Source: Deltaproteobacteria bacterium
Lineage (GTDB): Bacteria; Myxococcota_A; Polyangia; Polyangiales; JADJMO01
DNA: 64,000 nt
Assembly (NCBI GenBank): GCA_022843175.1
Contig: JALHOE010000010.1
Coordinates: 1-64,000, forward strand
Reading direction: 5' to 3'
The stretch's first letter is position 1; each line of letters starts with the position of its first letter. A program made the translations under genes and the position numbers. The notes below the pieces were generated by a model. It did not search any database. It had not been told where the DNA came from and was given only the letters and a program-made list of their open reading frames with translations. Shown here one piece after another: positions 60,902-64,000 of this stretch.

Positions 60902-61329
60902 TCCGCCGATCGTGAGCTCGAGTGGCTCAGCGATACTTGCCTTCGATCTGCGGGGCCGCGTGGCAGGCAGGAGGGTCCGGTGTCGGCCCCCGCAGTAGAA
61001 TGATGAAGCGGCGCACAGCGATCCGCGACGGAGCCTGAAAACGACCTGCGTCGCGGGGGCACCACGCGGTGACGGTGCAGTAGGTGCCCAACAGCGTGAG
61101 ACCGACGATGCGCTGCGATTTCGCCCTCGGGCTCGTTCCCCGTACCCGCGGCGTCCGGCTTCTTGCAGTCCGTGACGATCGCGCCCACGACCGTGTGCGC
61201 GACAATGACGCGCTCTCCCCCAACGTTCCGGACGGTCGGGAGAACTTTCGCGAACGACGGACGTCGAATGCTCCCAAGATGATTGGGGCGGCCGGTTTCT
61301 CACCCAGTCGCTCGAAGGGTGGAGGTCGC
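60902..61329. other. 428-base intergenic region with degraded minus-strand coding trace
   Basis: No intact gene was found. On the minus strand one frame reads GGERVIVAHTVVGAIVTDC to ~61110 with strong third-base GC, then the signal moves to a second frame (KSQRIVGLTLLGTYCTVTAWC) that reaches a stop at 60927. This suggests a frameshifted remnant of a small protein, perhaps a pseudogene spanning about 60927-61255. GC content is somewhat lower than in neighbours. The plus strand ends with GGAGG just before the next gene. Confidence 0.35.
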
Positions 61330-62505
61330 TTGGCTCGACGGCTCGCCGCGCTGGGGGTGGTGTTCTTTCCGATGGCCTGCGCGCCCGCCGCGGGGCCGGT
61401 GCCCACGACCGCGCGCGCGCCGGCCGCCGTCGAACCCGCGAGCGAGCGGCCGGCCAACGCCCCGATCGACGGGGTCGTCGAGCTCGCCCTCGCCTACGAG
61501 CGCAGCTGCGCGCGCCTCAAGAGCGGCGCGGTCAAGTGCTGGGGTCTCGGGTTCGACGACGCGGCGCACCCCTTCCCCACCTCGGTCGCCGGCGTCACCG
61601 ACGCCGGCCAGATCGCCCTCGGCCCGACCCACGCGTGCGCGCGCCTCCGCAATGGGCAGCTTCGCTGCTGGGGCAGCAACGAGCGCGGCGCGCTCGGCGA
61701 CGGCACGCGCGAGGCCACGGTGCTCGGGGCGACCGATCCGGGGCTCGAGAACGTGAGCAACATCGCCGTCGGCGCGCACTTCACGTGCGCCGTCCTCGGC
61801 GGCGGCGGCGCGAGCAGGGACGTCGCCTGCTGGGGCGACAACCACCGCGGCACGCTCGCCCTCGGTCTCGTGCACGACGGCGAGCTGCGTCCGACGAAGG
61901 CGCCGATGCTCTCGCACGTGCAGGCGCTCGCGCTCTCCGGTCGTCACGCGTTCGCGATCGCGACCGACGGCTCGGTCCTCGGCTGGGGCGACGGCGGCGC
62001 CGGTCTGTTCGGCGCGCCCGCCCCCAAGCCCGCGCCGTTCAAGCTCGCCGCGCTCGGCAAGGTGCGCGAGATCGCGTCGTCGCAGGGGCACGCGTGCGCG
62101 CTGCTCGAGGGCGGCTCGGTGGTGTGCTTCGGCAACAACGACGACGGTCAGCTCGGCGACGGCAGCACCGCCGCGCACGACGGTCTCGTCGTCGCGCTCG
62201 GCATCTACGACGCAGTGCAGATCGCGGTCGCCGACCGCACGAGCTGCGCGCGGCACGCGAGCGGAGCGGTGTCGTGCTGGGGCGCCAACGAGTTCGGTCA
62301 GCTCGGCGACGGCAGCACCGAGGGGCGCGGCAAGCCCGCGCGCGTACCGGGGCTCGGGCACGCCACTTCCGTGGCAGTCGGCGGCTCGCACGCGTGCGCG
62401 CTGCTCGACGACGGCAGCGTCCAGTGCTGGGGTTCGAACGGCGCCGGCGAGCTCGGCGATCGCACGCGCGCTTCCCGAAGCATCCGCGGCCCAGTACTCT
62501 TTTGA
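61330..62505 (+). CDS. RCC1-repeat lipoprotein
   Basis: 391 residues from a TTG start that has GGAGG five bases upstream; the frame runs further back but only this start gives a clean type II signal (VVFFPMAC, Cys17). After a Pro/Ala linker come seven or so RCC1/beta-propeller blades, each with Cys-Ala-(Arg/Leu/Val)-Leu and Trp-Gly motifs (CWGSNERGALGDGT, CFGNNDDGQLGDGS, CWGANEFGQLGDGS). In bacteria these lipoproteins are mostly of unknown role, common in Myxococcota. Only 4 bases separate it from the rhodanese-like gene, so both belong to one unit. Confidence 0.85.
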   Translation: MARRLAALGVVFFPMACAPAAGPVPTTARAPAAVEPASERPANAPIDGVVELALAYERSCARLKSGAVKCWGLGFDDAAHPFPTSVAGVTDAGQIALGPTHACARLRNGQLRCWGSNERGALGDGTREATVLGATDPGLENVSNIAVGAHFTCAVLGGGGASRDVACWGDNHRGTLALGLVHDGELRPTKAPMLSHVQALALSGRHAFAIATDGSVLGWGDGGAGLFGAPAPKPAPFKLAALGKVREIASSQGHACALLEGGSVVCFGNNDDGQLGDGSTAAHDGLVVALGIYDAVQIAVADRTSCARHASGAVSCWGANEFGQLGDGSTEGRGKPARVPGLGHATSVAVGGSHACALLDDGSVQCWGSNGAGELGDRTRASRSIRGPVLF

Positions 62506-62509
62506 GAGC

Positions 62510-62944
62510 ATGCGTGCATTCGCGTTGATGGTGGTGGTCGCGGCCCTCGGCTGCGCGAAGAAAGAAGCAGCCCCGTCGCCCGCCGCGTCGACCTCTCCCA
62601 CAGCGGAGAAGGCGCCGTTCAAGGAGCTGACGGTGGACGAGGTCGAGAAGAGGCTCGCCGCGAAGGACGGCAAGACCTTCGTCTTCGACGCCAACCCGCG
62701 CGAGGTCTTCGACAAGCGCCACGTACCCGGCGCCGTGTACGTGCCCGACGAGGGCGTCACCGCCTCGCTGCTCCCGCCCGACAAGAGCGCGGCGCTCATC
62801 TTCTACTGCGCCAACCCTCACTGAACGGCCTCCCACACCGCTGCGGTCGCAGCGGCAAAGCTCGGCTACTCGGACGTCTACGTCATGCCCGCGGGCATCA
62901 AGGGCTGGGAAAAGGCGGGCAAACCGATGGAGCCGCGACCGTAA
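62510..62944 (+). CDS. Rhodanese-like lipoprotein with in-frame TGA, candidate selenoprotein
   Basis: 144 residues if the TGA at 62822-62824 is read as selenocysteine (position 105); otherwise translation stops after 104 residues. Lipobox AALGC (Cys15), a Ser/Ala/Pro linker, then a rhodanese domain: VFDANPREVFDKRHVPGAVYV before the active loop. Cys100 opens that loop (FYCANPH), the TGA follows, and the same frame continues TASHTAAVAAAKLGYSDV, then GIKGWEKAGKP to TAA 62942. Relatives have a second Cys where the TGA stands. A perfect hairpin starts 13 bases downstream. A nonsense mutation would be the alternative, but the intact remainder and the hairpin argue for recoding. No sel genes are in the window. 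Confidence 0.85.
62822..62855 (+). promoter_or_regulatory. Predicted bacterial SECIS element
   Basis: UGA codon at 62822-62824, 13-base spacer, then stem CCGCTGC (62838-62844), loop GGTC, stem GCAGCGG (62849-62855): seven perfect pairs. Counting the UGA as bases 1-3, the GGTC loop lies at 24-27. In the E. coli fdhF SECIS, GGUC is in the loop at about 22-25, and the loop G and U contact SelB. The element lies inside the coding frame, as bacterial SECIS elements do. Confidence 0.8.
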
Positions 62945-63074: not shown

Positions 63075-64000
63075 ATGCGTTACGACCGCCTCACCACCAA
63101 GTCCCGTGAAGCCATCCAGGAGGCCCAGGGCCTCGCCTCGCGCCGCGGGCACCCGGAGATCCTCCCCGAGCACGTCGTCGCCGTGCTGCTCGGCCAAGAG
63201 GGCGGCGTCGCCCGGCCCATGCTGCAGAAGTCGGGCGCCGATATCGAGGCGCTCGAGCGCGCGGTGAGCGAGCACCTCGACAAGCTCCCCAAGCTGCAGG
63301 GCGGAAGCGAGCCCGGCCTCGGCCGTCGCACGCTCAACATGATCAACAAGGCCGAAGAGCACGCCAAGTCCATGAAGGACGACTTCGTGTCGGTCGAGCA
63401 CCTGCTCATCGCGCTGCTCAAGGACGACAAGGACTCGGCGGCGCTGTTCGAGCGCGCGCGGGTGCGCCCCGACGCGTTCCTCAAGGCGATCAAAGAGGTG
63501 CGCGGCAGCCAGCGCGTGCAGGACGCCGATCCCGAGGGCAAGTACCAGGCGCTCGACAAGTTCACCCGCGACCTCACCGCCGCCGCGCGCGCCGGCAAGA
63601 TCGATCCGGTCATCGGCCGCGACGAGGAGATCCGTCGCGTGATGCAGGTGCTCTCGCGCCGCACCAAGAACAACCCGGTGCTCATCGGCGAGCCCGGCGT
63701 GGGTAAGACCGCGATCGTCGAGGGCATCGCGCGACGCATGGCCGCGGGCGACGTGCCCGAGTCGCTGAAGGACAAGCGCCTCCTCGCCCTCGATCTCGGC
63801 GCGATGGTCGCCGGCTCCAAGTTCCGCGGCGAGTTCGAGGACCGCCTCAAGGCCGTCATCAAGGAGATCGAGTCCGCGCAGGGCCAGATCATCCTCTTCA
63901 TCGACGAGCTCCACACCCTGGTCGGCGCCGGCGCCGCCGAGGGCGCCATGGACGCCGCCAACATGCTCAAGCCCGCGCTGGCGCGCGGCGAGCTGCGCTG
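63075..64000 (+). CDS. clpB: ATP-dependent chaperone ClpB (5' part)
   Basis: The first 308 residues are present; the gene runs past the right edge. The N-domain has two Clp-N repeats ([18 protein letters not shown], then [10 protein letters not shown]). The first AAA+ domain begins with [13 protein letters not shown], Walker [14 protein letters not shown] and Walker [16 protein letters not shown], plus the pore segment [12 protein letters not shown]. ClpB disaggregates proteins together with DnaK. A good GGGAGA site stands 9 bases before the ATG. The start matches the typical ClpB N-terminus. Confidence 0.93.

Follow-up and report, generated by a model that had tools for sequence, protein, structure and literature searches.

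The window, a 64,000-nucleotide stretch of DNA, carries a gene that very probably encodes a selenoprotein (probability about 0.88). The UGA at 62822 would be read as selenocysteine, and the product would be a full rhodanese, exported and probably lipid-anchored, with a Cys100/Sec105 pair. The assignment of the TGA to selenocysteine is very probable because 24 relatives keep a TGA at the active site, each with a matching hairpin, in genomes that bear the machinery. The same reading had been put forward in the first-pass annotation of this DNA, and it gained support from the Cys found in relatives, the TGA conserved in 24 genes, the sel genes and a hairpin of the SECIS model. The selenocysteine reading is strongly supported, as the computations showed that the UGA is conserved, that Cys and Sec exchange at this codon, and that a hairpin and the genomic machinery are present; insertion itself is inferred from these findings. 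The features of the gene are listed below.

62510–62944, + strand: predicted gene for a rhodanese-domain selenoprotein of 144 residues via the TGA (translation with TGA as U; PF00581 match; same-genus relative with TGA)
62510–62572, + strand: putative signal peptide with a lipobox-like end (MRAFALMVVVAALGC, Cys15) and the start of a short linker (judged by eye)
62807–62809, + strand: codon of Cys100, the rhodanese catalytic-loop Cys and the first residue of C-x4-U (invariant in alignment A1; structure model)
62822–62824, + strand: TGA, predicted selenocysteine 105 (column with TGA in 24 genes and TGC/TGT in 27 relatives)
62838–62855, + strand: SECIS-like hairpin CCGCTGC-GGTC-GCAGCGG (7-bp perfect stem, GGUC loop)

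Reading Frame and Architecture of the Protein

The gene started at ATG 62510, and its internal TGA (62822–62824) lay directly after FYCANPH. The earlier description of a frame that halts at this TGA and runs on for 39 more codons to the TAA at 62942–62944 was borne out, as was the expectation that a standard gene caller would take the TGA as the stop and give a product of 104 residues; in annotation practice, genes of such kind get cut short at the TGA. PF00581 matched the read-through product with 54.5 bits (gathering score 22.2; E 1.8e-14), from profile position 1 to 101 of 102 at residues 41–135, and the domain was complete only when the TGA was read through. The tail had been described as the missing half of the rhodanese domain; it was indeed the rest of the domain, but it amounted to the last third, which is lost when the protein ends at residue 104.

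The openness of the tail alone was uninformative, as 43% of the base-shuffled versions of this 117-nt segment were also open. The GC contents at the three codon positions were 0.64/0.56/0.85 in the tail past the TGA and 0.68/0.65/0.63 after the TAA, so coding base composition runs on past the TGA and ceases after the TAA. The tail is informative because this composition extends past the TGA and because the tail is conserved in relatives keeping the TGA. Decay of the tail in close relatives had been named as a point against selenocysteine, but the tail was conserved: of 34 codons after the TGA that were compared with a same-genus relative (62% identical, TGA kept), 19 were identical, 7 were synonymous and 8 had changed.

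The 144-residue product was laid out as a signal-like N terminus ending in AALGC, a linker and the rhodanese domain. Cys15, the lipobox-like residue, was near-invariant in alignment A1 and conserved in most relatives, which supports the lipoprotein reading given on first inspection, and the window protein is probably exported, putatively through Sec as first proposed, and lipid-anchored, as judged from its N-terminal sequence. Among the TGA relatives, a clear signal peptide was not seen in L082 (genome G490) and L085 (genome G488), and L065 had a plain signal peptide. Cys100 was invariant across alignment A1 (24 rows), being the loop Cys in the catalytic position.

The open reading frame upstream (61084–62505), an RCC1-type repeat protein by its look, ended with a TGA at 62503–62505, 5 bases before ATG 62510, and the two genes may share a transcript because of this 5-base gap. 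Downstream, after a gap of 130 bases, the open reading frame at 63075–64000 resembled a ClpB-type chaperone. Across the 51 family loci, no conserved neighbour gene was found except within close lineages or as shadow frames of the gene itself, and none pointed to a pathway.

Sec/Cys Exchange among Relatives

The search for relatives covered 184 genomes from the order of the window's genome and 379 genomes sampled evenly across the phylum. In 24 genes from several family-level groups, codon 105 itself was a TGA in frame, and 23 separately assembled genomes carried the TGA form. The 27 Cys relatives compared had TGC (24) or TGT (3) at the same column, in agreement with the earlier statement that the TGA stands where relatives have the second Cys of a Cys-x4-Cys loop. 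The motif of the family was FYC-xxxx-U/C. Most TGA relatives read UxxC, with a further Cys three residues on, and the window has Ser at this position (U-T-A-S).

A protein tree of the family was built without the TGA/Cys column. The Sec and Cys labels were intermixed on it, with at least 9 changes, 4 of which were forced by well-supported branches, and one supported sister pair within a single genus consisted of L037 (Cys) and L040 (Sec). Real selenoproteins, unlike decaying genes, would be expected to show this exchange pattern. Moreover, such matched Sec and Cys relatives, sometimes within one genus, provide a natural experiment on the contribution of Sec to a rhodanese site.

Genome G490 held three family members (L082, L086 and G490:C276:17449-17835), two with the TGA and one without it. 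A distant relative, G474:C1:3133914-3134249, had one internal TAG in place of the TGA. The protein scan of the contigs of the window's genome returned one remote rhodanese only, which lacked the C-x4-C/U loop.

SECIS-like Hairpin

The perfect 7-bp hairpin with a GGTC loop, reported in the first reading of the sequence, was found at 62838–62855, with its stem starting 13 nt and its loop 20 nt after the TGA. GGUC is also present in the loop of E. coli fdhF. The hairpin of the window (7 bp, GGUC, 20 nt) agrees with the bacterial SECIS model, which comprises a loop of 3–9 nt, a stem of 4–16 bp, a G within the first two nucleotides of the loop and a distance of 16–37 nt from the UGA (PMC13188914). 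All 24 TGA genes had a stem of at least 6 bp with a G-containing loop 20–26 nt after the TGA, and the G was in the first two loop positions; the loop started at 20 nt in 14 genes, at 21 nt in 5, at 22 nt in 1 and at 26 nt in 4. Only 5 of the 27 Cys genes had such a stem, over a scanned range of loops 16–30 nt after the codon. The hairpin energies of the TGA and Cys genes differed with a Mann–Whitney p of 2e-9, and of 2e-6 with one gene per lineage.

In five relatives in the register of the window, both partners of two of the six core pairs had changed, from C-G to T-A, and the changes fell on third codon positions where they were synonymous. Over five sequences, this signal of compensatory change was modest, 24 of 500 shuffles doing equally well. 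When the pairing partner was shifted in register by up to 3 bases, much of the pairing was gone. Resampling of synonymous codons found the hairpins mildly unusual per gene (median p 0.16), with a Fisher combined value of 3e-5 over genes that are non-independent. Single hairpins are only mildly unusual because Ala, Val, Arg and Gly codons pair easily in GC-rich DNA; what gives the hairpin its weight is therefore the contrast with the Cys genes, together with the constancy of its position. The folding energies of whole segments against shuffles were not decisive. In lineage f3 (L035, L040, L041 and L042), the hairpin was placed otherwise than the GGTC type, with an AGGC loop region 26 nt after the TGA, which suggests that SECIS elements arose or moved separately.

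Selenocysteine Machinery

The window's genome is a draft of 470 contigs (9.75 Mb). The search for selA, selB, selC and selD, which had been proposed along with the selenocysteine reading, found all four genes in it, so selB and selC are not absent. The scores were 342 bits for selA, 279 bits for selB (above the cut-off), 65 bits for selC (tRNA-SeC(tca) by ARAGORN) and 359 bits for selD; selA and selB each lay at the edge of a small contig. Furthermore, selD was itself interrupted by an in-frame TGA at its glycine-rich active site, HGAGUACK (L048:1480-1700, contig C44 of genome G000), which makes it a second, classical selenoprotein gene of this genome, with SelD as a predicted selenoprotein. 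For FdhA-type enzymes as other users of Sec, no internal TGA was found in the PF00384 regions, outside which the usual Sec site may fall.

A tRNA-Sec of at least 59 bits was found in all 23 genomes with a TGA rhodanese. A strong selB was found in 19 of them and went undetected in the other 4 (three fragmented drafts and one genome that was 64% complete). Within the order only, selB was present in 13/14 TGA genomes vs. 11/42 Cys-only genomes (Fisher p 1.4e-5, hand-counted and with kinship ignored).

Alternative Explanations and Proposed Mechanism

The TGA could be a true stop, leaving a rhodanese gene that is broken or truncated, either by a nonsense mutation or as a deliberate short product. 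TGA is an ordinary stop in the window's genome and gene callers end there; this explanation is nevertheless very unlikely, given the conservation of the tail against the 62%-identical gene of the same genus, the retention of the same TGA in 24 genes and the loss of the active-site helix and the remaining fold that the structure model would predict. Slightly less probable still is the decoding of the UGA as another residue, by a near-cognate Trp or a suppressor. Any read-through would yield the full rhodanese domain, but the relatives carry Cys and not Trp at this codon, TGA still terminates other genes of the family, and tRNA-Sec in 23/23 TGA genomes and the bSECIS-like hairpin point to selenocysteine. 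An error of sequencing or assembly from TGC to TGA would need a single base, in a draft of 470 contigs. Its probability is nearly nil, as the same codon was TGA in 23 separately assembled genomes, each with a hairpin that was mostly absent from the Cys genes.

For the selenocysteine reading, the following mechanism is proposed. The ribosome would read UGA 62822 as selenocysteine via tRNA-Sec, SelB and the downstream hairpin, giving the full rhodanese domain, and the protein would be exported and probably lipid-anchored. Cys100 is at the position of the invariant loop Cys of rhodaneses, and the sixth loop position is Arg or Thr in many rhodaneses. The predicted Sec105 is this sixth residue, and Cys is found there in family relatives. 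From the single-sequence structure model, a weak one (mean pLDDT 61), only the succession of strands and helices was taken; Cys100 ended the strand before the active-site loop and residue 106 started a helix in this model, so Cys100 and Sec105 would flank the active-site loop. Cys100 would be the sulfur-carrying residue, with Sec105, five residues on, as its partner. In the most probable chemistry, Sec105 would resolve a sulfane sulfur or an oxidised thiol on Cys100 by way of a selenenylsulfide, to be opened by a thioredoxin-like reductant in the periplasm. The chance that the Cys/Sec pair works outside the cytoplasm in the reduction of persulfides or in thiol redox reactions is put at about even. 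A selenoprotein whose Cys/Sec pair does something other than resolve sulfane sulfur, e.g., acts as a thiol peroxidase or reduces arsenate or metalloids on a rhodanese/Cdc25-type fold, is a more tentative possibility; the closest solved C-x4-C relatives (3nhv, 3o3w, BH2092) bear no functional name, and against it, the gene neighbourhood gave no pointer to arsenic or peroxide. Evenly poised is the broader proposal of an undescribed subfamily of exported, lipid-anchored Cys-x4-Sec rhodaneses, widespread among these bacteria with large genomes, in which the loop would have been turned from a sulfurtransferase site to a Cys/Sec redox pair with repeated Sec/Cys switching.

Comparison with Known Rhodanese Selenoproteins

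A Sec-containing rhodanese as such is already known, as had been noted in the first-pass annotation: a catalogue of 2026 lists five forms, namely UxxS, UxxG, CxU, UxxG and UxxxxU (PMC13188914). The best NCBIfam match of the window protein was TsoB (NF045694; UxxxxU in PMC13188914), with 56.8 bits over residues 4–141 and profile positions 8–157 of 572. Both have a rhodanese domain and two chalcogen residues spaced x4, and both are apparently exported. However, the cut-off of TsoB is 805 bits, TsoB is a 572-residue rhodanese/DsbD fusion whereas the window protein has 144 residues without the DsbD part, and the window has CxxxxU, in which the first residue is Cys and not Sec. Across the 379-genome phylum sample, no protein passed the TsoB cut-off. 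Members of the rhodanese_LYCAU family (NF041203) are likewise rhodanese-related (seleno)proteins in which Cys and Sec lie near each other, but their motif is CxU vs. CxxxxU, and the window protein, at 36.9 bits, fell short of the 115-bit cut-off. The motif of form 1 (UxxS, WP_010941598.1; PMC13188914), compared by listed motif only, is compatible with U-T-A-S of the window, but most TGA relatives of the gene have UxxC.

The predicted exported single-domain Cys-x4-Sec form matches none of the five forms by listed motif or NCBIfam cut-off, form 1 being judged by the motif listing alone. It would be a new variant among rhodanese selenoproteins, because the cut-offs of TsoB and LYCAU were not reached and no TsoB above its cut-off turned up in the phylum sample. 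Literature searches on myxobacterial selenoproteins gave no relevant hit, and the gene adds a well-supported, probably exported Cys-x4-Sec selenoprotein to a bacterial group of large genomes (judged by these sizes, probably Myxococcota) for which no selenoprotein study was found in the literature. In addition, the loop layout was shared with the C-x4-C protein BH2092 (PDB 3nhv, 3o3w), which reads YCWGPACNGA vs. FYCANPHUTAS of the window and has Cys where the window has Sec, at remote homology only (E about 1e-5).
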